Assembly: GCA_949317995.1 (NCBI GenBank)
Contig: OX439037.1
Span: 74,215,762 to 74,279,761 of the forward strand
DNA: 64,000 nt
Origin: Acholoe squamosa
Taxonomy: Eukaryota > Annelida > Polychaeta > Phyllodocida > Polynoidae
Direction: 5' to 3'
Shown: in pieces, positions 5,965 through 63,922 of the stretch
How the letters are laid out: every line of letters starts with the position of its first letter
Position numbering within the stretch: position 1 is the first letter of the stretch
Program-made: the position numbers and the translations under genes
The notes under the pieces: generated by a model
The model's input: only the letters and a program-made list of their open reading frames with translations
Database searches by the model: none
Told to the model about the DNA's origin: nothing

Positions 5965-7022
5965 AAAGAGGTCTACCCTATCTAATGCAGTGGTTGCAGG
6001 CCTGTCAGGAATAGCAAGTCCTGGGATCACTTCACTATTCCTTTTACCAACACTAAGATCACTGCGATCTTAGTGAAAGAATTGCATAGTGGTTTCACCT
6101 GAGTACAAGAGCACTCACAGGGAACACTCCTGATCAAAAGAGTGAATAGCCTGCTGCATACATATAGAGGGAAGGGGGAACATTTGCTGAGTGTCCTTGA
6201 GGGGTCTTACGCTACTCATGCATTAAGTGCACTGTAAGGTAATTCTTCCCTTCTCTCTCGTTGTCCTGGGGGGGCACAATGCTTCTAATAGGCAAGCATA
6301 AATCATACATTCATGGGAACAACTCTTGAATACTGTACGGGGGTCAACTGCACGCTGTGCTCTTTCGTTAGCCCATATGGGGACGGGGAACGATGGTATA
6401 AACACTGTTGTAAAGAAGAGTGGCTCCACAGCTATTCCATTATTTTGGGACTCTTAGTCTTACCCCTGTGTCCAGTCAGTACTTCTTGGAATAGTGTAGG
6501 AGGGCTGAGGCTAAGCTCGATGTGATCTTAGTGCTGGCTAGGAAATGTGAATGCAGTCTAATCTTAAGATCGCCTAATAGGATAAGGTAGAATAATTCCT
6601 AAGATCGCTGATGTTGCGATCTCAGGATGTTTTGAATTAACCTCTTGAGGGGGGGGGGCACGATGCTTCTAATAGGCAAGCATAAATCATACATTCATGG
6701 GAACAACTCTTGAATAATGTACGGGATCAACTGCACCCTGCGCTCTTTTGTTAGCCCATATGAGGACGGGGAACGATGGTATAAGCACTGTTGTGAAGAA
6801 GAGTGACTCCACAGCTATTCCTTTATTTTGGGACTCTTACCCCTGTGCCCAGTCAGTACTTCTTGGAATAGTGTAGGAGGGCTGAGGGTAAGATCGATGC
6901 AATCTTAGTGCTGGCTAGGAAAAGTGAACGCAGTCTAATCTTAAGATCGCTTAATAGCATAAGGCAGAATAATTCCTAAGATCGCTGAGGTTGCGATCCC
7001 AGGATCTTTTGAATTAACCTCC
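5965..7022 (+). mobile_element. TIR element family C (AAGATCCTGGGATC ends), left-truncated, right half doubled
   Basis: Matches 35163-35808 (reverse) and 36068-37931. It begins inside the left half (GGTCTACCCTATCTAATGCA). It runs through the shared segment with TAGTGAAAGAATTGCATAGTG, then contains the right half twice: once ending at about 6648 and again ending at 7022 with GATCTTTTGAATTAACCTCC. The short peptides readable from the AATAGGCAAGCATAAATCAT segment recur in every copy and are not evidence of coding. TTAA lies at the terminus, so TTAA targeting is possible but unproven. Confidence 0.8.
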
Positions 7023-22241: not shown

Positions 22242-22313
22242 TGCCATGACCAGGATTCGAACCTGGGTTGTCTCGGCCACAACGAGAAGTACTAACCACT
22301 ATACGATCATGGC
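22242..22313 (-). tRNA. tRNA-His, anticodon GTG
   Basis: The 72-nt reverse-strand sequence folds perfectly. Acceptor GCCATGA pairs with TCATGGC plus discriminator A. Anticodon stem TCTCG/CGAGA encloses loop TTGTGGC (anticodon GTG). T stem CCAGG/CCTGG encloses TTCGAAT. The A box contains TAGTGGTTAG and the B box is GGTTCGAATCC. It closely follows the animal tRNA-His pattern and has no intron. The nearest downstream T-run (5 T, at about 22200-22204) is about 38 nt after the 3' end, farther than usual. It could therefore be a genuine gene with a long trailer or the head of a young tRNA-derived SINE. Confidence 0.9.
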
Positions 22314-28793: not shown

Positions 28794-30079
28794 CATTGGC
28801 AGTAGTGAAACAGGGGGATGGGACCATTGACAGTAGTGAAACAGGGGGATGGGACCATTGACAGTAGTGAAACAGGGGGATGGGACCATTGACAGTAGTG
28901 AAACAGGGGGATGGGACCATTGGCAGTAGTGAAACAGGGGGATGCGACCATTGAAAGTAGTGAAACAGGGAGATGGGACCATTGACAGTAGTGAAACAGG
29001 GGGGTGGGACCATTGACAGTAGTGAGACAGGGGGATGGGACCATTGACAGTAGTGAAACAGGGGGATGAGACAATTGACAGTAGTGAAACAGGGGGATGG
29101 GACCATTGAAAGTAGTGAAACAGGGGGTTGGGACCATTGACAGTAGTGAAACAGGGGGGTGGGACCATTGACAGTAGTGAGACAGGGGGATGGGACCATT
29201 GAAAGTAGTGAAACAGGGGGATGGGACCATTGAAAGTAGTGAAACAGGGGGATGGGACCATTGACAGTAGTGAAACAGGGGGATGGGACCATTGACAGTA
29301 GTGAGACAGGGGGATGGGACCATTGAAAGTAGTGAAACAGAGGGATGGGACCATTGACAGTAGTGAAACAGGGGGATAGGACCATTGACAGTAGTGAAAC
29401 AGGGGGATGGGACCATTGAAAGTAGTGAAACAGGGGGATGGGACCATTGACAGTAGTGAAACAGGGGGATGGGACGATTGACAGTAGTGAAACAGGGGGA
29501 TGGGACCATTGAAAGTAGTGAAACAGGGGATGGGACCATTGACAGTAGTGAAACAGGGGGTTGGGACCATTGACAGTAGTGAAACAGGGGGTGGGACCAT
29601 TGACAGTAGTGAGACAGGGGGATGGGACCATTGAAAGTAGTGAAACAGGGGGATGGGACCATTGAAAGTAGTGAAACAGGGGGATGGGACCATTGACAGT
29701 AGTGAAACAGGGGGATGGGACCATTGACAGTAGTGAGACAGGGGGATGGGACCATTGAAAGTAGTGAAACAGAGGGATGGGACCATTGACAGTAGTGAAA
29801 CAGGGGGATGGGACCATTGACATTAGTGAAACAGGGGGATGGGACCATTGAAAGTAGTGAAACAGGGGGATGGGACCATTGACAGTAGTGAAACAGGGGG
29901 ATGGGACCATTGACAGTAGTGAAACAGGGGGATGGGACCATTGAAAGTAGTGAAACAGGGGATGGGACCATTGACAGTAGTGAAACAGGGGGATGGGACC
30001 ATTGACAGTAGTGAAACAGGGGATGGGACCATTGAACGTAGTGAAACAGGGGGATGGGACCATTGAACGTAGTGAAGTA
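28794..30079. repeat. 31-bp minisatellite, about 41 units
   Basis: Unit TGGGACCATTGACAGTAGTG + AAACAGGGGGA, head to tail for about 1.29 kb with a few one-base length variants. Common variants are GAAAGTAGTG and GTGAGACAGG. On the reverse strand the unit contains no stop in any frame, so three long overlapping ORFs (up to 522 codons) arise automatically. The forward strand has stops in the unit. I treat it as non-coding. Confidence 0.95.
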
Positions 30080-31102
30080 GGGGGATGTGATCATTTTCCA
30101 TAATTCCTTTTTTTTTTTTTGGAAAAGCCCATTTATTACCAATACACTATGCACCCATAATAAATGACCTCTGAACATATCAGTAGTTTTCAGTATTCTC
30201 CCTTCCAATATAAGGACAGATTCCAGTGCTGCTTCAGAGACTTCTAACACATATCTCACAAAAACTGTTCTCATACATGGAGAAACCCATACAAATTTTA
30301 GTTCATCATCTTCTGTGACAGAGTCATAGTGAGATAAGAGAGGGTGTGACAGGAGGGACAAATATCAACAACATTTGGATTTTGTGACTACATTCTCACC
30401 TTCTGCCGGATGTCATTAATTCCATCAAGAGAGACAAAAGGGGATCCAGGACTATAAGAATTCGGCCCTTGTATGTCCCTCTCATGACATACTCCCTTCC
30501 CCCAACTCTATAGTGTGTTAAGCAGAGCACGAATACCGTGTTACTATAGTGAAGGATAGACTCTTACTCCATACGGAACTTCCTTAGTATTTGGGCACTG
30601 CACTAAGACAACGTCTACTCTGAGGATCATGAGGTTTGTTGAAAGCAGTGCTAATTTACCACCGTTTTGAATTAACCTCCAGGTGAGTATTAGATCTATA
30701 GTAATCGAGGCAGTGATATCACATGAGTAGAAGGTAAAACGCTGATACATTTATACACGTGCTATTATGTCTACATTCGCCTGGATGGAGCTTTACACAC
30801 GTGCAGAAAATGTAATGGTCGACCTAGTTTGTGATCACTAGTTATTTATTATATATCACACAGAGATTGGAGGGTGTATGAACATACTCTAGCTAGCATT
30901 TGAAGGACCCTTCAAGGTTACATCAAGTTTCTAGCATCATTGTTTATTTATAAAACAATATGACATTTTCCCCACACATACTGAGATATTAGTCGTCTAA
31001 CTGTTTATCCCTAGAGATGAAAATATTTTTTTCCGTGTCTTTTAAATAGGATCATTTTTGGCTATGCATGTTTTGTTTAGTTTAAAAAAGGATTTTCTCA
31101 GT
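30080..31102. other. no gene recognised upstream of the sulfotransferase remnant
   Basis: A reverse frame reads about 100 non-repetitive codons from 30361 into the minisatellite, without a recognised domain. TTTTGAATTAACCTCCAGG near 30663-30682 matches the right terminus of family C and may be a remnant. Confidence 0.4.
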
Positions 31103-35808: not shown

Positions 35809-36067
35809 GCAGCAGTAATGTTCAGTGCATTATTGGTTAAAGCAGCATTACTGATATCAGTGTTGTCCAGGGTAGTATCATTTGAAGCAGCCTTGGTTGA
35901 ATCAATCAGTGTTATTTGTGTTGGTTTTTCCATAGATTGTATCATTTGAAGCACTGTTACTGTCATCAGTGTTCTCCAGAATAGTATTGTTTGAGGCAGT
36001 GTTACTGACACCATTGTTATTCAGCATAGTATTGGTAGAAACATTGTTATTTGAGTCAATGTTGCCT

Positions 36068-37931
36068 GGAGCTTAATTCAAAAGATCCTGGGATCCCAAC
36101 CCCAGCGATCTTAGTGTAGGCACATATCATAAGACCTGGCTGGTCTACCCTATGTAATGCAGTGGTTGCAGGCCTGTCCAGAATAGCTAGTCCTGGGATC
36201 ACTTCACTATTCCATTTCCACCACTAAGATCACTGCAATCTTAGTGAAAGAAATGCATAGTGGTTTCACCTGAGTACAAGAGCACTTACAGGGAACACTC
36301 CTGATTGAAAGTGTGAATAGCCTGTTGCATACATAAAGAGGGGAAGGAGGACATTTGCAGAGTGTCCTGAGAGCTCTTAGGGCTACTCATGCGTTAAGTG
36401 CACTATAAAGTAATTCTTCCCTTCTCTCTCTTTGTCCTGGAGCTTAATTCAAAAGATCCTGAGATCCCAACCCCAGCGATCTTAGTGTAGGCACATATCA
36501 TAAGACCTGGCTGGTCTACCCTATGTAATGCAGTGGTTGCAGGCCTGTCCAGAATAGCTAGTCCTGGGATCACTTCACTATTCCATTTCCACCACTAAGA
36601 TCACTGCAATCTTAGTAAAGGAAATGCATAGTGGTTTCACCTGAGTACAAGAGCACTTACAGGGAACACTCCTGATTGAAAGTGTGAATAGCCTGTTGCA
36701 TACATAAAGAGGGGAGGGAGGACATTTGCAGAGTGTCCTGAGAGCTCTTAGGGCTACTCATGCGTTAAGTGCACTATAAAGTAATTCTTCCCTTCTCTCT
36801 CTTTGTCCTGGAGCTTAATTCAAAAGATCCTGAGATCCCAACCCCAGCGATCTTAGTGTAGGCACATATCATAAGACCTGGCTGGTCTACCCTATGTAAT
36901 GCAGTGGTTGCAGGCCTGTCCAGAATAGCTAGTCCTGGGATCACTTCACTATTCCATTTCCACCACTAAGATCACTGCGATCTTAGTGAAAGAAATGCAT
37001 AGTGGTTTCACCAGGGTACAAGAGCACTTACAGGGAACACTCCTGATTGAAAGAGTGAATAGCCTGCTGCATACATAAAGAGGGGAGGGAGGACGTTTGC
37101 TGAGTGTCCTTGAGGGCTCTTAGGGCTACTCATGCGTTAAGTGCACTGTAAGGTAATTCTTCCCTTCTCTCTCTTTGTCCTGGGGGGAGGGCACACTGCT
37201 TCTAATAGGCAAGCATAAATCATACATTCATGGGAACAACTCTTGAATACTGTATGGGGGTCAACTGCACCCTGTGCTCTTTTGTTAGCCCATATGGGGA
37301 GGGGAACGATGGTATAAGCACTCTTGTGAAGAAGAGTGACTCCACAGCTATTCCTTTATTTTGGGACTCTTACCCCTGTGCCTAGTCAGTACTTCTTGGA
37401 ATAGTGTAGGAGGGCTGAGGCTAAGATCGATGCAATCTTAGTGCTGGCTAGGATATGTGAACCCAGTCAACTCTTAAGATCGCTTAATAGGATAAGGCTG
37501 ATTTATTCCTAAGATCGCTGGGGTCGTGATCCCAGGATCTTTTGAATATAGCTCCTGGGGGGAGGGCACAATGTTTCTAATAGGCAAGTATTAGTCATAC
37601 ATTCATAGGAACAACTCTTGAATACTGTACGGGGGTCAACTGCACCCTGTGCTCTTTTGTTAGCCCATATGGGGACGGGGAACGATGGTATAAGCACTCT
37701 TGTGAAGAAGTGTGACTCCACAGCTATTCCTTTATTTTGGGACTCTTACCCCTGTGCCTAGTCAGTTCTTCTTGGAATAGTGTAGGAGGGCAGGGGCTAA
37801 GATCGATGCAATCTTAGTGCTGGCTAGGATATGTGAACCCAGTCAACTCTTAAGATCGCTTAATAGGATAAGGCTGATTTATTCCTAAGATCGCTGGGGT
37901 CATGATCCCAGGATGTTTCGAATTAAGCTCC
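36068..37931 (+). mobile_element. TIR element family C with tandem half-units (3 left, 2 right)
   Basis: A 371-bp left unit begins at 36068, 36439 and 36810, each starting GGAGCTTAATTCAAAAGATC. It is followed by a 375-bp right unit beginning at about 37180 and 37554, each ending near GATCCCAGGAT(C/G)TTT(T/C)GAATTA. The outermost ends are inverted repeats of each other (GAGCTTAATTCAAAAGATCC against its complement). The copies within each half are nearly identical, so the amplification is recent. No ORF. Confidence 0.9.
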
Positions 37932-38497
37932 AGGGGTAGTGCTATTAGAGGTGGCATTTCCTATGGTAGAAGGTTTTGAAGCAGTGTTGTTTGTATTGAC
38001 ACTACCAAGGGTGGATTGGTTTAGAGCAGTGTAATTTGCACTGGCGTTTCCAAGAGCAGGATGGACGATATCGGTGTGAGTTACATTGCTGTTACCTTGG
38101 GTATTCTGCTTGGAAGCAGCATGATCTTTGTTGCCATCGGAATTGCTGTTCCTATTGTTTCCACCTGAATTAACCGTGGCCATGTTTCCTCGTGACTCAA
38201 TAGCCCCAAATGCACTTGACTTAGCCAGATTAATTCCATGTTTTGCCTTTATATGCACGATCCTATTATGTATATAAATACTTTGCATCTGGAGACATAA
38301 AAGTGAAATGGGTGACAAAAAACGTACATAACATTGATCAATTACATGTCCAAGAGAATATTTTTTTTAAATCTTTTACAGTTGTTAAGACTTTGGGTAC
38401 TGCAATGTGAAGTAATATGTTGTCTGTTCACCTTTTGAAGCCAGCTTTAAATGGGCGTAGAAAAGAGGTAATTTAAAATCTGCGAGAAGAGTACTGT

Positions 38498-55868: not shown

Positions 55869-56000
55869 ATGGCTCCCTTTCTCCTGATAGTGGTGGTAAC
55901 CCTGCAGCTTATGGCTGGTTTGCCAGGGTCTACAGCCAAACCAACCACCAGAAATGACTCTCATACTGACACCACTAAACGACTGGCGAGGATGGAAATG
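55869..56000 (+). CDS. fibrinogen-related gene exon 1 (signal peptide)
   Basis: The ATG at 55869 sits in ACCATGG, a strong Kozak context. A 17-residue hydrophobic signal is followed by LPGSTA, a likely cleavage site, and an NDS sequon. Donor GTGAGG, phase 0. The upstream in-frame run through the TA repeat is not a better start. Confidence 0.87.
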
Positions 56001-59000
56001 GTGAGGATTTCAACATTTTTGTGCTAAAAATCAGATTATGTATCGTCAAATTACAAACAGTGTTATTTTTTTTATGTTATAACCTATGTGCTAGAAGAAA
56101 TTTCTCATCCCAAAAAGATATTGAAGGAATCTTTGTATAATTTGTTCTTTTCCAACCTAGCTTTTGGACCACACAAGTAGAAAGAAGAGTAGAAGGAGGA
56201 TAAAAGATAATTTTACTGAACTGTTCACACTTGAATATTGCATGAAAAATATTTCAAGGTTCTTGACAAAATAAAAAATGCCATGGACACCCTGATAGAC
56301 AACCAGGATGTTGAGAAGCAGTACTTGATAAAACGACAGGCTGCCATGGAGAAGAAGATGGAATGGTCACTAACGGCTACCCTCCAGGGGAAGTACTCTG
56401 CAATAAATGAGCTGATGCTGGTTTTAGTATCAAAAGCCGTAAGTATAAGAGGATTTCAGGGATTCAACAATTTCTGTATTGCAAAGGCCCGGCCACCATG
56501 GTTACATGCTGCACACACTAAACTTTGGCCATTTTAAGACACACTTCCGACACATCGCAGGCCAGTCTACAAAAAAATTAAATCAACAAAACATTTTTTA
56601 TCATTTTTAAGCAGCCAAACATGTCTACTAAGCAATACAAAACAGTTCAACATCATAAAAGCTGATTCCTTAGACTGGTGAGCATTCCACTTAGACAATC
56701 ACTTTTTGTGGCCTACACTGAATTGGCCTGATTCAATGTTAGTCACACCTCAGTACATGTAGTTGAAAATTGCTTCCAAGCCTGTGGTGATGTAGGGTTT
56801 ATAGGTAGGTCCAAACATTTTTCTACCAAATAGACCCCTATAGGAACCCTATTAATGGTGGGTATTGATAAGATTAAAGGTGGTATTTTAGCAGGTTAGC
56901 CAGTGTATATAATGTGATAGGCTTAGTGAGTAGAAAACCTGTCTTTTTTCATGGGAAGAGGTGCCTCGAAAAAATTATCAACTCTAAATGGCATGGAAAT
57001 ATTAGATAGGACCTCCAACTAAGGGAAGAATTAGTCTTCCAGGATGATAGGCTGACATAAACAAATTTCTCGATGCAGAAGTTTTCTATCAAATATGACT
57101 TGAATAAGGAAGAAGGGTGCTTTGAATTGTTTATTGCAGCTCCCTGAAGCAAAAAAAAAAAACACACCAAAAGACATAGTTTCTTGGATCTGCCCATATA
57201 TTTGTTCACCTTGCTTATCTTTCCTTTGATTAACTAAAAGTATTTCCATCGCTTCATGTTCACATTTCAGCTTGTCTCTGGAACCACCAATGACACTACT
57301 AATGATTTCCGAACTCTTGGGAGAATTCACACGCCGGACACACCAACATGTGAGATTTCTATCATCATTTTACCAAAAATCATGTTTTAACTAAGAATTC
57401 AAATAAGCCAGCGTTTCTGTTGATCCAATAGCGTAGAAGGTGTATAAGACATGTTTGTAAATTCATACTTAAATATTTTTCATTTGAAAACCTTTGTCAG
57501 TCCTGTCAGGGTCTACTCCAAATGAGTAATTTTTTTTGTTATAATTTTGTTCCGTTAAGGATTCTTCTCCTGTTTCACTTTCAGTGTACAAAGATTGTCT
57601 TGAAGCAAAGGCACATGGTTGGATTTGGTCAGGACTGTATCAGATATCCCCCAATGCCACCACAGTTTTGGATGTATATTGTGAACAAGTTGTCGACGGT
57701 GGTGGCTGGTCGGTTAGTTACATTCATTATCATCCTTAATATTACTTACTTAAGTAAGAGTATAATGAGTTCAACAAAAACAATGACAACAACAAAGGAA
57801 AGAAAATAGAACAATAGAGAAAAAATAAGACATAGTGGGTTAAAAATAGACAATTCTCATTACTAATTTACTGGTTGGGTACATTTTTCTATAACCTTCA
57901 GTTCAAGCCGGACTACATGAACCTTCAGGATTTCCGACCATTCCCTGACACCAGCACTCCTCCAAAAGGTTTTGTACATTCTAAATACCTGTCCTTTAGC
58001 ATATAAGATTATTGCTATAAGCCTCATATTTAAAATATTACCAGGGTATATATCCTAAAGCTGTCCATATAGTTTAAGATATCCACACCACTATTGTATA
58101 GAAAGCAGTTTGATGCTGAATCAACTCTCAATTGATCAATTTTAATTTTTTTTATTACACCAGTTTTTAATGTTTTTACAGCTTTGAAGTAAGCTCTCTG
58201 CTAATCAACCATAGTACATTTTTCACTGTCCTGCCAGGTTCTCTGCATCCACTGAAGTCGAGGTTATTGGTGAGAAATTACCAGTCATGATTGTCGTTGT
58301 GCTGTTTGAAACTTTTATTCAGTTATCTTTATTTTCTGTAGTGTATAAAGATTGTCTTGGAGCAAAGAGACATGGTTGGATTTGGTCAGGATTGTATCAG
58401 CTATCTCTGAATGGTTCCACAATAATGGATGTGGCCTGTAAACATACAGACGAAGGGAGCTGGACGGTATAAATCTCTCTTATAATTGATATTGTTACAG
58501 TGGCGCGGATCTAGAAATTCAAAAATGGGGAATTTATTACAGGGGTCTTCTAACGCAAATTACAATTGGAATAATGACAATTTCCCACGCACCCCCTCTA
58601 AATCTGCCAGTGATGAACTTTCTGCTCCTTTGTCTGACATGAATGGTTAATTGTGCTTGTGAAATCATACTTAACTAATGTTTTATTGTGTTCCTGTTCG
58701 AAACTTTTTACCAGAACAATTCATACATTTTACAGCTGCTGCCAGGTTTACCATATGTGCTCCCAGCTGCTGGTCCTATGGACTACAGGCCCATTCCAAA
58801 CACTAGATCACCTGCTAGTGCTCGAGGTTAGTTTTCCAGAAATAATTTGTGTTTGTGTGGAAATGCAATTGCCCTCAGTCTCAGATCTTTATAATAATGA
58901 ATTTGGATGTGTTCACTCCCTTTCAAATACATAGCATTTCCTCAAAAATTGAAGATAAAAATAAAAGGGCATGGTCGGTCTTATTTTGCTAGGAAGGGTT

Positions 59001-60493
59001 GAATATTCTGAAATTTTAGCCATAGGTGATATATTTTGACTTAAACAGGCAGACTCTTATTCGCACGCTTGTAGGGCAAAATGTAGAATTCTGTTTAACC
59101 CTTTACACAGTCCAGAAGGCACTTGGGTAACTAGGCTCATAAGGAAACAAGTGTGGGCACTTTTCCTCATAATACACTATCATTCTACTTTATAGAATCA
59201 TAGCTAGGGCGCATATACTTATAGAGACAAAATCTGCAGCTGCTTGCATTATTACGGAAATCAGCCCGACCTAAGTCGTCAGTATGACGACTCTGTATTG
59301 TCAGTATTGTCATACTGACGACTGAGGTCATCATCCTGACTACCTAAAGTAGTTGTTTTAGGTATTGTCAACCTGAGGACCTAAAGTCGTCACCACTGGC
59401 TACTTTTGGATCTTCCAGGTTCCATTGTAGACATCTACAGATGTAGATGTCTACACATATATACACATTGTATAGTATAGTAAGAGAGCTAATGTATTAA
59501 TGCATTATGCCCATTGGCCGTTGCATGAATGCAGCTATGGCAGGTACATTATCAGGGGTATATTTTTGATGCATCATGCCGGCACTATATGGGTTGATAG
59601 ACCCTCAGAGGGTTGGCTCGATGCCCCTGTGTATATGGGTCAACCTTTAATCATTTAACAACCATCAACATCAGCTATGTGACCAAAGCATGTTTATATC
59701 ATAATTGAAACTCCCCAGGTAGCAAGGATGCATTTGGCCAATGTCGGCTTATATTGGTCCAATGTTGGCTTATATTGGGCCAAGCATGGACAATCATGGC
59801 CCAATGCTCCATTGCTGATTGGGTAGGGCAAATTCCTTTAATGCATCCTTTACATTCAAGATTGTTGGGAGGCCTTCAAAAATGGATGGACCTCAACAGG
59901 AATATATACAATTTCTCCAGACGGCCAGCACCAAATAGATGTGTATTGTGACCCGGATGGATGGACGGTTTGTAACTACCATAATAACCCACTTATAAGG
60001 TGCATCTTATACATGAGGATGGGCCCCTGGTGCACCTTATAGGACCAGGGAAAGTTGAGGGAAAAAGCTCCCTTCTGCCTCTCCTAAATTCAAACGTGTT
60101 TGTCAGCTACACACAGACATAGCAACCCATAGTTTTTGGAATTTCGAGAATCCATTAAATAGAATAGAAGTTATCTCATTTTGAATTCTTTCTAGCACAT
60201 TGATAAAGTTTGTTCTCATTTCTATATATGTCATAATGTATTCTTTTATCAATAGGTAATACAAAGAAGGCTCATCTTTGGGCTAGCTGACTTTGATCAG
60301 GACTGGAATACATACAGGAAAGGTTTTGGTGATTTAGGAGGAAGTTTCTGGCTGGGCAATGACAACATCCATCTACTGACAAGGGGCTCTCCCCACAAAC
60401 TACACATCAGTACACCATATTGGAACTACAACTTGGATAATTTTATGGTACACAATGAATCCCAAAACTACAAACTTCATACATCAAAGCCAG
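55869..60493 (+). CDS. secreted fibrinogen-related protein with three alternative-looking first-part exons (3' part outside window)
   Basis: In-frame exons: 55869-56000, 56259-56438, 57271-57349, 57585-57712, 57902-57968, 58342-58466, 58736-58826, 59861-59967 and 60256-60493. The first encodes a signal peptide (MAPFLLIVVVTLQLMAG). The second is a charged helix likely to be a coiled coil. The third is a Thr-rich linker with NDT sequons. The 57585, 58342 and 59861 exons each encode the opening of a fibrinogen C-terminal domain (DC...SG-Y-I-x-P...YC...GW), separated by Pro-rich linker exons. The 60256 exon carries VIQRR, DFDQDWNTYRKGFG and FWLGNDNIHLLT, the classic middle of the domain. The C-terminal portion with the Ca-binding site and the last Cys pair is absent up to 64000. 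Family members are secreted recognition lectins (ficolin, FREP, tachylectin) or matrix ligands. Which one this is cannot be told without the C-terminal half. Confidence 0.9.
56259..56438 (+). CDS. fibrinogen-related gene exon 2 (coiled coil)
   Basis: 60 codons, phase 0 in and out: VLDKIKNAMDTLIDNQDVEK, then a Lys/Glu/Met-rich helix to LVSKA. The acceptor TTTCAAG has a weak pyrimidine tract. A stronger acceptor at 56160 leads into a stop in this frame, so the weak one is preferred. Donor GTAAGT. Confidence 0.72.
57271..57349 (+). CDS. fibrinogen-related gene exon 3 (Thr-rich linker)
   Basis: Acceptor CACATTTCAG, donor GTGAGA, phase 0 to 1. Encodes LVSGTTNDTTNDFRTLGRIH and TPDTPT. Confidence 0.8.
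57585..57712 (+). CDS. fibrinogen domain first-part exon, copy 1
   Basis: Phase 1 to 0. Encodes YKDCLEAKAHGWIWSGLYQI, NAT sequon, LDVYCEQ and GGGWS. Two Cys 28 residues apart match the first domain disulfide. Excellent acceptor CACTTTCAG, donor GTTAGT. Confidence 0.88.
57902..57968 (+). CDS. Pro-rich linker exon after copy 1
   Basis: Phase 0 to 1. Encodes FKPDYMNLQDFRPFPDTSTP + PK. The donor GTTTTG is non-ideal; GTACAT at 57974 is an alternative that would leave phase 0. A further exon-like segment at 58238-58269 has a good acceptor and a GTGAGA donor but needs phase 2 on entry to reach the next exon, so it is not included. Confidence 0.6.
58342..58466 (+). CDS. fibrinogen domain first-part exon, copy 2
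   Basis: Phase 1 to 0. Encodes YKDCLGAKRHGWIWSGLYQL, an NGS sequon, MDVACKH and GSWT. It is identical to copy 1 at 17 of the first 20 residues, so the duplication is recent or kept similar by conversion. The canonical Tyr before the second Cys is Ala here. Donor GTATAA. Confidence 0.85.
58736..58826 (+). CDS. Pro-rich linker exon after copy 2
   Basis: Phase 0 to 1. Encodes LLPGLPYVLPAAGPMDYRPI and PNTRSPASAR. It corresponds in position, phase and composition (DY-x-x-x-P) to the linker at 57902. Acceptor TTTTACAG, donor GTTAGT. Confidence 0.75.
59268..59425. mobile_element. foldback MITE family E, truncated copy 3
   Basis: Retains the centre and right arm of the family (CGACCTAAGTCGTC, GTCAACCTGAGGACCTAAAG, TTGGATCTTCCAGGTT). 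The left arm is lost. It lies in the intron between the copy-2 linker and copy-3 exon. Confidence 0.85.
59714..59823 (+). repeat. dispersed repeat family B, copy 3
   Basis: CCCAGGTAGCAAGGATGCAT, then two GGCTTATATTGG(T/G)CCAA units, ending GCCCAATGCTCCATTGCTGA + TTGGG, which resembles the complement of the start. It ends about 35 bp before exon copy 3. Confidence 0.75.
59861..59967 (+). CDS. fibrinogen domain first-part exon, copy 3
   Basis: Phase 1 to 0. The Asp codon of DC is completed across the splice. Encodes DCWEAFKNGWTSTGIYTISP and DGQHQIDVYCDPDGWT. It is the most canonical of the three at its end (DVYCD...GWT), and directly precedes the common exon. Confidence 0.88.
60256..60493 (+). 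CDS. fibrinogen domain middle exon (common exon)
   Basis: Acceptor TATCAATAG, phase 0 in; donor GTGGGA at 60494, phase 1 out. Encodes VIQRR through HTSKP with the conserved F-W-L-G-N-D-N-I-H-L-L-T core. The remaining exons are not found before 64000. Microsatellites and a retroelement follow at once. Confidence 0.9.
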
Positions 60494-61117: not shown

Positions 61118-61867
61118 ATGGGGAAAAGAACTACTGCAGGTGCTAAGAAGAAGAATTCGTCGAAAAAATCGGCTAAATCGGCTAAAATGGACAATGAATC
61201 GGCCAATTTAGGATCTTCGAGCAGTCTTACTTCTCTGGGTAGGGGTCTGGAGCCCTTACAGCCTAATACGCCACAGGCCTTAGAGAGTGAGATTGTTGAC
61301 CAGACGAGACTGGATTTGGTGGAGGAAGACCTTTCGGATATAAAGAAGATGTTACGTGATGTTATTGCTAACCAAGGGGCCCGTAAGGACGAGATGAACT
61401 TTTTGAGCGGAGCGGACAGCGGGGTGGCGAGAGCACGTGCATCTGTATACAAACAAGATTCGAGAGACGCGAAACCAAGGCGACGGGGGCGTGGTCTGCA
61501 GCGGGAGCATGACGATGACAGCGTCCATAGCAACCAAGATACAAAGATTTTCACTATAAAAGCCTTGGTAGCATATGATAAGTCCGTTAGGGACAGGGCT
61601 AATATCGATGGTTTAGATGGCTTTGCAATGATTGAAAATTCGGATATCCTCCGTCACTTGTCTTATCACGGGACAGTGCAAGCTCAAAGGGCTTATTCAA
61701 CCAAGCCAAAAAATTCTGGTAAAATTAGGGTATCTACAAACTCATGCTACGCATTCAACAGGGCAGAAGGGTGCTCTAGGGACCCATGCAAATATAGGCA
61801 TGTTTGTAGTTCATGTACCAAATCAGGCCATAATAAGTTGGATTGTCAAGTAAACAAATCTGACTAG
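61118..61867 (+). CDS. retroelement ORF1, Gag-like zinc-finger protein (249 aa)
   Basis: Starts MGKRTTAGAKKKNSSKKSAK: a basic, Ser/Lys-rich N-terminus. The middle has an acidic helix region (about 50-90). The C-terminus holds two zinc motifs: C-X8-C-X4-C-X3-H (about residues 210-228, CYAFNRAEG then CSRDPCKYRH) and a classical C-X2-C-X4-H-X4-C knuckle (about 230-243, CSSCTKSGHNKLDC). Such a pair is expected to bind element RNA. The ORF ends at TAG, 24 nt before the ORF2 start. Uninterrupted, so probably recently functional. Confidence 0.85.
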   Translation: MGKRTTAGAKKKNSSKKSAKSAKMDNESANLGSSSSLTSLGRGLEPLQPNTPQALESEIVDQTRLDLVEEDLSDIKKMLRDVIANQGARKDEMNFLSGADSGVARARASVYKQDSRDAKPRRRGRGLQREHDDDSVHSNQDTKIFTIKALVAYDKSVRDRANIDGLDGFAMIENSDILRHLSYHGTVQAQRAYSTKPKNSGKIRVSTNSCYAFNRAEGCSRDPCKYRHVCSSCTKSGHNKLDCQVNKSD

Positions 61868-61891
61868 GATTTTACAGGTGAGCAGGGTCTT

Positions 61892-63922
61892 ATGTGTGAC
61901 AGTATGTCGATGTCAAAGTCATGTATAGTAGGTTTGGTAGACCCTAGTTCGCCTCCACCCGCTGCTCCAGCTCGGGGTGTTGGTGTATTTAATGCTGGAG
62001 GGGTAGATTTGGTCTCTCTGAATGATATCAGCGTACCAAGTTTACAAAATGATGTTGAAAATGATATTAATATTAAATCCGACGCTGTTGGTTTGGATAT
62101 ATCATATAGTGGCCCAGTACAGGGCAAGCTTAAACCATTGTTTAATGTTGCTATTGGAAATCTACCTAACATCGAAGTGTATGATAGCTGTATAAATGGT
62201 GTGTGCAATTGTGTTCATTATGTCAATGGGAAAAAATCCCAAATTTTACCTTGCAGAGTGGCTCCATATTTGACCCAAAAAGGTATCATAAATATAGATA
62301 GTAAAGAGGCATTATTCTTATGGCAAGGTTTTGTTGAGGGGTTCAGGATAGTTGACCCGGACTGCAATACTTCTTATGATTGTAGAAATTATAAGTCCAT
62401 TCTTGAAGGAAACTTCTATAATGAATTTTGTACTATATTGCGAGAGGAGTTAGAGGCGGGTCTAGTGTCCAAAGTTGAAAACAAACCTAAGTGCATCCAC
62501 TCCCTGGGCGGTGTGGAGAAGTCGAATGGCAAGTTAAGGCCCATAACTGATTGCAGTATGCCGGAGAAAGTTTCTATTAATAACTATATGGACAAGACTA
62601 GTTCTACCTTCTCTTACAATAATATTGGTACAGTCACAGCTCAGTTAGATAAAAATGATTTTATGAGCGTAGTAGATTTAAAATCTGCCTATAGAACTAT
62701 TAATGTTTATGGCCCTCACACTGGTATGCAAGGATTTAGGTGGGACTTTGGTCAAGGTGAAGGTTTCTATGTGAGCAACAGGTTAACTTTTGGACTTAAA
62801 TGTGCCCCTTATATATTCAATAGAATATCTGATTTTATTGTGGAAGTGGCCAAGAGCTATGGTGTAAAAAGGTTGGTCAATTATCTAGATGATTTTATCA
62901 TAATTGCTGATACTTATGGTGAATGTCTACGTCAAAGAAATATCCTCATTGAATGCATGCAGCATATGGGGTTTGTGGTATCGAGAGAAAAGGTAACGGA
63001 ACCTTCACAATCTTGTAAATTTCTTGGCATCGATATAGACTCTGTTAATCTGGAACTATCCTTACCAGAGGATAAGGTGACTAAAATGAGAGGTATTCTG
63101 GTGGAAAATGTTAACAAGAAATTTATTTCTAAAAAGAATCTTGAAAGGATAGGTGGCCTAATGTCTTTCTGCTCACAGGTGGTTAAGGGTGGTAGAACCT
63201 TTAGCAGAAGAATTTTTTATCTCTGCGCGAGAGCTAGGCCAGGGGGTTATATTAGGGTTTCAGCCTGTACTCGTCAGGATATGCAATGGTGGCTTGACTT
63301 TTGTATAGTTTTCAACTGTAAGAGATTAATTCTGAACGATTTGATTGATACACCTATGTATTCCGATTCTTCTGTTAGGGGTTTCGGAGCTTGAATGGGT
63401 AAAGATTATTTATATGGTGACTGGACATCTCATGATAGTTTCAACTTGGGTTCAGGCCATTTTTCTCTCCCTCCTATATTGGATAACTTGAAAAATCACC
63501 ATAGAAATATAAATGTGTATGAGCTATATCCTGTCATGGTTGGTCTGAAACGTTGGATTTCAGGTTGTAAAAATAAAAGAATCCATTGCATTACCGATAA
63601 TATGCAAGTTCTAGCTATGATAAATACTGGTAGGTCCAGGAATAAGTTATGTATGGAGTGGTTAAGAGAGATCTTCTGGCTTTGTTTTATAAACAATGTG
63701 GAGGTGTACACAACCTATATTAAGTCAGAGGACAATGTCCTGGCCGACCAACTTTCTAGACTTGCTTATAAGGGTATTCCAAGCAAATGTATAGCTTCTC
63801 TCCATGATAATAATATGTGTTGCTTTAATTCCAGACTGGGAGAGGTTACTAAACAGAAAAAGGTTACTTTTAGCCCAGGGTGTGTCAGAAAATACGAGGA
63901 GGGCAAGGAACCAACAACTTAA
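61892..63922 (+). pseudogene. retroelement ORF2, reverse transcriptase/RNase H, one in-frame TGA
   Basis: One frame runs from 61892 to TAA at 63922, except for TGA at 63392-63394. After a about 200-residue N-terminal region, the RT domain shows KLRPITDCS, DFMSVVDLKSAYR (catalytic Asp), LTFGLKCAPYIF, and NYLDDFIII with YLDD at residues 331-334, then FLGIDID. RNase H follows: MYSDSSVRGFGA (first Asp), the TGA, GDW, ELYPVMVGL (Glu), ITDNMQVLAMI (Asp) and NVLADQLSRL (Asp). All four acidic residues are present. The stop falls inside the RNase H first strand, so it is a disabling substitution unless read through. Function: DNA synthesis from the element RNA. Confidence 0.92.

Follow-up and report, generated by a model that had tools for sequence, protein, structure and literature searches.

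Why should a gene with a single fibrinogen (FBG) domain contain three exons for the first part of that domain, all ahead of one common exon for the second part? Such an arrangement is found in the annelid Acholoe squamosa, in a 64,000-nucleotide stretch of contig OX439037.1 (hereafter the window), and it could reflect either a choice among exons in different transcripts or a series of half-domains within one protein. The first-part exons are called here A1, A2 and A3, the linker exons preceding them L1, L2 and L3, and the exons for the second and last parts of the domain B and C (Table 1).

The AG/GT borders and phases of the A and linker exons were re-derived from the sequence, which confirmed the alternation of linker and A exons before B as well as the phases given in the initial annotation. 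The lengths of the A exons are each 2 mod 3 and those of the linkers each 1 mod 3. Both linkers initially placed at 57902 and 58736 are present, and a third, at 57271-57349, belongs to the same series. The initial description covered 57585..60493; the exons in this interval were recovered, but the gene continues outside the window, exon C being located 5.3 kb past B and beyond the window end. The retroelement reading frames found in the B-C intron are separate from the lectin coding sequence. Joining all the exons yields an open frame of 484 aa, with the stop in the last exon.

Table 1. Exons of the FBG gene and neighbouring reading frames, in window numbering.
Feature	Position	Strand	Length (nt)	Phase (entry to exit)	Remarks
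Exon 1	55869..56000	+		exit 0	Start codon; signal-peptide-like hydrophobic start (by eye)
Exon 2	56259..56438	+		0 to 0	Charged coil-like region (by eye)
L1, linker	57271..57349	+	79	0 to 1	Thr-rich
A1, first FBG part	57585..57712	+	128	1 to 0	Canonical DC...YC...GGGW
L2, linker	57902..57968	+	67	0 to 1	Pro-rich; donor GTTTTG weak, acceptor good
A2, copy 2 of first FBG part	58342..58466	+	125	1 to 0	Degenerate; donor GTATAA weak, acceptor fair
L3, linker	58736..58826	+	91	0 to 1	Pro-rich
A3, copy 3 of first FBG part	59861..59967	+	107	1 to 0	Short loop CDPDGWT; donor GTTTGT, also in three relatives
B, common second FBG part	60256..60493	+		0 to 1	VIQRR...
Retroelement frames, B-C intron	61118..63394	+			Gag-like with CCHC, then reverse transcriptase; kind by eye
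C, last FBG exon	65838-66146 (L011:1838-2146)				Outside window; ends in stop

The 484-aa model matches Pfam Fibrinogen_C with 142.3 bits (cut-off 22), the best stretch (residues 266-481) corresponding to A3+B+C, which is a complete, though divergent, FBG domain. The last exon retains FSTNDKDNG...C...GGWW and is divergent in its remainder, as judged by eye against the acetyl and calcium pocket residues of FBG lectins such as ficolin and TL5. The three copies are unequal: A1 is canonical, A3 has a shortened loop and A2 is degenerate with a weak donor. On its own, A1 reaches 27.9 bits in Pfam Fibrinogen_C (cut-off 22) and 32.5 bits in NCBIfam YCDxxxxGGGW (cut-off 30), A3 is slightly below the Pfam cut-off of 22 with 21.5 bits, and A2 has no match to Pfam or NCBIfam. 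A profile of paralogues, built from 21 of 25 A exons extracted from relatives (three of locus L009 and one of L043 were omitted; two of the 21 come from the C15 array described below), gave 61.4 bits for A1, 59.0 for A3 and 33.8 for A2. The initial description of three exons with the same first FBG part, DC...YC...GW, was correct in homology, coordinates and borders, except that copy 2 reads VAC for YC and GSW for GGW. The cysteine pair is retained in all three copies.

The FBG gene family of this genome is very large. Among 118 A-like matches, a B match comes next within 12 kb in 92 cases, neither A nor B in 21, and another A in 5 (the B list comprised 139 places chosen by hand from match rows, with which 14 further A places were compared by eye only). 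Two of these five cases are the present gene and three belong to an array of separate genes on C15, and the triple A stands alone among the matches searched. The C15 run (63155687-63163923) was rejected as a second example: its A exons have B and/or C pieces between them and belong to distinct genes that are partly decayed. A locus on C4 (L009/L021) was also rejected, since it carries partial copies of the start of its A exon, with the acceptor, in tandem DNA repeats of ~125 bp, with no family-type donor. The examination took in about 39 A-like places at 29 loci; 10 lacked borders of the required phase, and about four duplicated a peptide already present. All 25 distinct A exons that were kept run from phase 1 to phase 0, as the extraction required, and 11 of them are 128 nt long, like A1. 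Because the A exons of relatives have the same phases, in-frame duplication of linker+A would suffice for the phase symmetry of the present gene, which is hence no evidence for alternative splicing.

The relations among the copies point to local duplication. A1 and A2 are alike in DNA well above chance (local score 111, against a maximum of 27 in 50 shuffles), while A1 and A3 are not (23, against a shuffle maximum of 31), and the kinship of A3 with both copies is detected at the protein level (tblastn of the A3 part of the query, 6.7e-6 to A1 and 5.5e-4 to A2). By far the nearest relative of A2 is A1 (6.9e-13; next best 2.8e-6), and a WIW stretch common to the two is absent from the 21 profile rows. 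A1 is 63% identical to A2 (1.8e-12) and almost as similar to single-A exons on C16 (59%, 2.2e-11), hence A2 carries more of the argument for local duplication than A1 does. Among the linkers, L2 resembles L3 (p 0.0002), L1 shows no significant kinship with L2 (p 0.065) or L3 (p 0.12), and the genome search gave no further match. In addition, and compatibly with any of the readings below, part of the A1/A2 likeness might stem from gene conversion or from another small duplication confined to the 5′ half of the exon. This is a tentative suggestion, consistent with 7 of 63 bases differing in the first half versus 22 of 60 in the second (Fisher p 0.0012; dividing point picked after looking), with a dS of 0.28 versus 1.04, and with alignments that never extended into introns. 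However, the sites are few, and a first half under stronger constraint would likewise show fewer differences.

We consider it probable, with modest confidence, that this is one gene for a secreted protein with a single FBG domain, that its pair of linker and first-part exons was duplicated in tandem, and that all modules are spliced in by default. Since the A exons extracted from relatives run from phase 1 to phase 0, a duplicated linker+A unit would remain in frame without regulation. The predicted protein would comprise signal peptide, coil, linker-A1-linker-A2-linker-A3, B and C, with A1 and A2 as additional half-domains that each have a cysteine pair and are carried on Pro/Thr-rich spacers lying between the coil and the lectin head. 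Constitutive splicing, secretion, disulphides and any binding role would be predicted properties of such a protein, and A2, the most divergent module, may sometimes be skipped or be decaying. Of the two readings first offered, a protein with two extra half-domains is the better fit. Several points nevertheless run against the series: A1 is a more canonical first half than A3, as might be expected if A1 were joined to B, and the kinship of L1 is, as noted, non-significant. The A2 donor is at the 8th percentile of 38 donors and that of L2 is also weak in this set (20 A donors, with L004 also omitted, and 18 B donors set at the first in-phase GT). When scores are built from A exons alone, L1 and B donors rank below those of L2 and A2. 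Acceptors, scored from A exons alone, are lower for A3, L1 and L3 than for A1, A2 and L2.

The main competitor, which we regard as unlikely, is that transcripts differ in which of A1, A2 and A3 they join to B, by mutual exclusion or cassette skipping, altering part of the lectin head. There are 13 in-frame paths through the six linker and A exons, and frames with A1 only, A2 only or A3 only are all open, in agreement with the earlier claim that any first part can join the 60256 exon. A1 offers a canonical first half, and the weak L2 and A2 donors could be regulated. However, the phase fit comes with the exon structure of the family, the linkers between copies mean that picking one A requires joint skipping of several exons, and A2 fits the paralogue profile much more poorly than A1 and A3. 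The L1-A3 join is in frame but gives Tyr where L2-A3 or L3-A3 give the Asp of the DC motif; among 15 relatives having this residue inside the exon, 11 have Asp and none Tyr. No pairing above shuffles was found in the 15 pairs among six introns (z -0.5 to +1.25), although competing intron RNA pairing is not needed by all mutually exclusive exon clusters. Dscam contains mutually exclusive duplicated exons, as reportedly does oyster AOX (PMC5589949); the present gene resembles them in its tandem exon copies ahead of a common exon and differs in that linkers alternate with the copies and intron pairing was not found. Mutually exclusive exons varying one face of the lectin, as initially envisaged, thus have no positive support. 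Of the junctions to 60256 proposed as a test, those from the exons ending at 57349 and 58826 cannot join in frame, since both exit in phase 1, and the A1 donor at 57712 is missing from the list. The suggested sampling of gill presupposes an animal with gills, and the mitochondrial gene order, judged by eye, hints at an annelid.

It is improbable that A1, A2 or both are relic copies now left out of the spliced transcript, so that the functional protein would contain L3+A3 or L1+A1 only. The degenerate A2, unmatched alone in Pfam or NCBIfam, and the weak L2 and A2 donors would fit this, and an open frame may survive by luck, since 22% of simulated frames stayed open after 29 random substitutions. 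However, all six exons retain frame-preserving lengths and AG/GT borders, the L2 and A2 acceptors are good, and A1 and A2 each still carry both cysteines and an N-glycosylation sequon (NAT, NGS). The two also differ by fewer amino acids than expected under neutrality (dN 0.22, dS 0.57), as 15 differences or fewer arose in 3.1% of neutral simulations. Equally doubtful is a combinatorial cassette in which regulated splicing around L2/A2 would exploit up to 13 in-frame paths, the resulting lectins differing in their number of half-domain modules, from none to three, and in which of the three first halves forms part of the recognition head. The initial label of a compact cassette for recognition diversity over-reads the locus.

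Invertebrate FBG lectins (FReD/FREP, e.g., those of Biomphalaria glabrata) form a large family with an N-terminal region and a C-terminal FBG domain, some being described with coils (PMC7588048). The present gene shares this layout and membership of a large family but differs from FREPs, which have one or two IgSF domains upstream of FBG, in its threefold first FBG part and in that no IgSF domain was found by Pfam in the 484-aa model, where Fibrinogen_C is the sole domain found (exons farther upstream are possible). Among the best 60 of 68 PDB sequence matches of A3+B+C, angiopoietin-1 and -2 come first, followed by angiopoietin-related protein 2 and ficolin-1. Angiopoietins, angiopoietin-related proteins and ficolins likewise have a stalk ahead of the FBG head; in the present gene exon C is strongly divergent. 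None of these three groups is known to repeat a half-domain or to have more than one FBG domain. The first part is also treated as a separate unit in the half-FBG module of NCBIfam NF040941, "YCDxxxxGGGW", with A1 above its cut-off; that model serves bacterial annotation, whereas the modules described here are serial and precede a full FBG domain. Contactin-associated proteins also contain a half-FBG region. Repeated first-FBG exons were not described in the literature searched in full text, as judged by titles and abstract openings.

Deciding between an array and exon choice is a matter for RNA; as read here from genomic DNA alone, an array is most likely. If exon choice were true, the locus would amount to a germline-encoded diversity system on a small scale. 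If the gene is translated as predicted, an animal lectin would be using the first FBG part as a repeatable bead, and exon-pair duplication would be a means by which a very large FBG gene family gains new binding proteins. As it stands, the gene is an unusual yet understandable variant within the FBG family.

The gene under study, on the plus strand, encodes a predicted secreted lectin with a fibrinogen (FBG) domain, whose first-part exon occurs in three copies (A1, A2 and A3). Each copy is preceded by a linker exon (L1, L2 and L3), and the series leads to a common second-part exon (B) and, after an intron of 5344 bases, to the last FBG exon (C). With all exons joined, the frame stays open for 484 aa and closes with a stop. 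The initial annotation's observation of three in-frame A exons is borne out, with corrections. The frame is also open in each form joining L1 to A1, A2 or A3 alone, and 13 alternating linker/A paths, counting the empty one, are in frame.

Exons of the lectin gene and other features of the window (window numbering)
Feature	Position	Strand	Remark
Exon 1	55869-56000	+	
Coil-like exon	56259-56438	+	
Linker L1	57271-57349	+	
A1	57585-57712	+	
Linker L2	57902-57968	+	
A2	58342-58466	+	
Linker L3	58736-58826	+	
A3	59861-59967	+	
B	60256-60493	+	
C, last exon	65838-66146	+	outside the window (L011:1838-2146)
Retroelement	61118-63394		in B-C intron; gag-like (CCHC) and reverse-transcriptase frames; kind judged by eye
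Two-copy arrays	6268-7021 and 37178-37936		376-377 bp, consensus units alike
Three-copy array	36065-37183		371 bp, adjoins the array at 37178
Tandem repeat	28794-30095		31-bp unit, 42 copies; open in several minus-strand frames, giving long, probably spurious ORFs
tRNA gene	22242-22313	-	Rfam, 61.4 bits

The three copies are unlike in quality. A1 shares 60% identity with A2 and 50% with A3 over the shorter length of the latter. In a search with A2, A1 was by far the nearest relative among the matches listed (6.9e-13 versus 2.8e-6 for the next), while in a search with A1, single-A exons on contig C16 of the same assembly (2.2e-11) were nearly as close as A2 (1.8e-12). Against a profile built from 21 A exons of relatives, A1 scored 61.4 bits, A3 59.0 and A2 33.8, the relatives themselves, each left out in turn, scoring 59.6-88.5 except one at 29.9. 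A1 (above 2 of 21) and A3 (above 1 of 21) hence lie near the bottom of the range, and A2, also above a single relative, is far below it. Pfam Fibrinogen_C (cut-off 22 bits) found A1 (27.9), narrowly missed A3 (21.5) and did not list A2; the NCBIfam YCDxxxxGGGW model placed A1 over its cut-off and A3 under it, with no match to A2. The copies are canonical (A1), degenerate (A2) and shortened (A3) rather than equal alternatives.

The A1/A2 likeness in DNA runs from the acceptor AG to a point inside the exon. With a dividing point picked after looking at the data, 7 differing sites fall in the first 63 bases and 22 in the last 60 (Fisher p 0.0012); dN/dS is 0.22/0.57 for the whole, 0.08/0.28 for the first half and 0.40/1.04 for the second. 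This unevenness may reflect conversion or unequal constraint.

Both cysteines are retained in all three copies, as are the splice borders and exon lengths that preserve the frame. Between A1 and A2, 15 aligned amino acids differ; in simulations of 29 random substitutions, 15 or fewer changes arose in 3.1% of cases and 16 or fewer in about 9%, and the frame stayed open in 22%. This is moderate evidence that purifying selection has acted on a translated exon, and it is improbable that A1 and/or A2 are relics no longer spliced in.

Among relatives, 25 distinct A exons were extracted; all run from phase 1 to phase 0, and 11 match A1 in length (128 nt). Extraction required these borders, which were lacking at 10 of about 39 places, some having A and B in one exon and others being broken or incomplete. 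Since relatives share these phases, duplication of a linker-A pair necessarily yields in-frame modules, and the phase symmetry is a leftover of duplication rather than a sign of regulated splicing. The modules are in frame as initially annotated; as an indication of exon choice, their symmetry loses its force. L049 and L050, which by their A exons (59% identity to A1) are among the nearest relatives, each have a single A and a single B in the 7-kb stretches read.

Within what was searched of this 1.48-Gb animal assembly (63 contigs), the triple A is special. A1 had at least 118 matches. For each, the next feature on its strand was sought up to 12 kb away, with 139 hand-picked places serving as the B set; match counts for A and B are lower bounds, as the search scores the best candidates alone. 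B came next in 92 of the 118 and neither A nor B in 21. A followed A in five, two of them in the present gene. The remaining three form one run on contig C15, rejected as a multi-A gene: B and/or C pieces lie between its A exons, with stops in some pieces, and the stretch (C15:63151000-63164600) holds tandem, separate, partly decayed FBG genes. No further A-to-A run was seen by eye among the matches to A2 (at least 52) or A3 (at least 116).

The FBG family is large genome-wide, with at least 169 matches from the best 150 of 502 candidates. One member (C4:89500670-89503948) has A and B in a single exon; upstream of it, tandem DNA repeats of about 125 bp hold several partial copies of the A-exon start, each with an acceptor and without the second half or a family-type donor. 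The genome also holds eight tyrosinase-family matches in four places, where a mollusc having haemocyanin genes would be expected to show more. Contig C63 is mitochondrial: its COX1 agrees with code table 5, TGA standing for Trp, AAA falling at lysine-like positions and AGA at serine-like ones. By eye, a nad2-like stretch, COX1, an Asn-tRNA-like stretch and COX2 follow one another, which looks annelid-like, nad2-cox1-trnN-cox2 being the annelid gene order; a run of ARAGORN under the bacterial code gave no tRNA at the Asn-tRNA-like stretch. The animal may thus be an annelid.

Donor strength was ranked from bases +1 to +6, with 38 donors of the family as reference. A1 and L3 ranked at the top, followed by the coil exon (97th percentile), A3 (79th), L1 (50th), B (34th), L2 (24th) and A2 (8th). 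A 9-base score built from A donors alone placed L1 and B under L2 and A2, and an acceptor score built from A exons favored A1, A2 and L2 over A3, L1 and L3. As these rankings disagree, splice sites do not cleanly single out any one module. For some skipping of L2 and A2, which as a pair would keep the frame, the most consistent argument is the weak donor of A2. L1 ends in T, so that its join to A3 gives TAT (Tyr), while L2 or L3 gives GAT (Asp); the residue before the first Cys is Asp in 11 of the 15 profile rows that hold it inside the exon and Asn, Ser, Ser and Gly in the rest, the other 6 of the 21 rows, in which we had inserted Asp, being left out. Across 15 intron pairs (at most 500 bases each, 30 Markov shuffles each), z ranged from -0.5 to +1.25, hence docking-selector pairing is not apparent.

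The A3+B+C head is an FBG domain (Pfam Fibrinogen_C, 142.3 bits), nearest in the PDB, among the matches listed, to angiopoietins, then to angiopoietin-related protein 2 and ficolin-1. By eye, the C exon retains FSTNDKDNG and GGWW and is otherwise divergent, which makes a classical ficolin pocket doubtful. Both A1 and A2 have an N-glycosylation sequon, located at the same codon (NAT and NGS). The half-domains might fold alone, as suggested by the stand-alone GGGW model and by the half-FBG regions of contactin-associated proteins. The likeliest product would be secreted and possibly oligomeric, with two extra half-domains on Pro/Thr-rich spacers. Of the two readings initially offered, this one fits better, and the analysis gave no support to a cassette for recognition diversity. 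The gene is an unusual duplicated-module variant within a known family.
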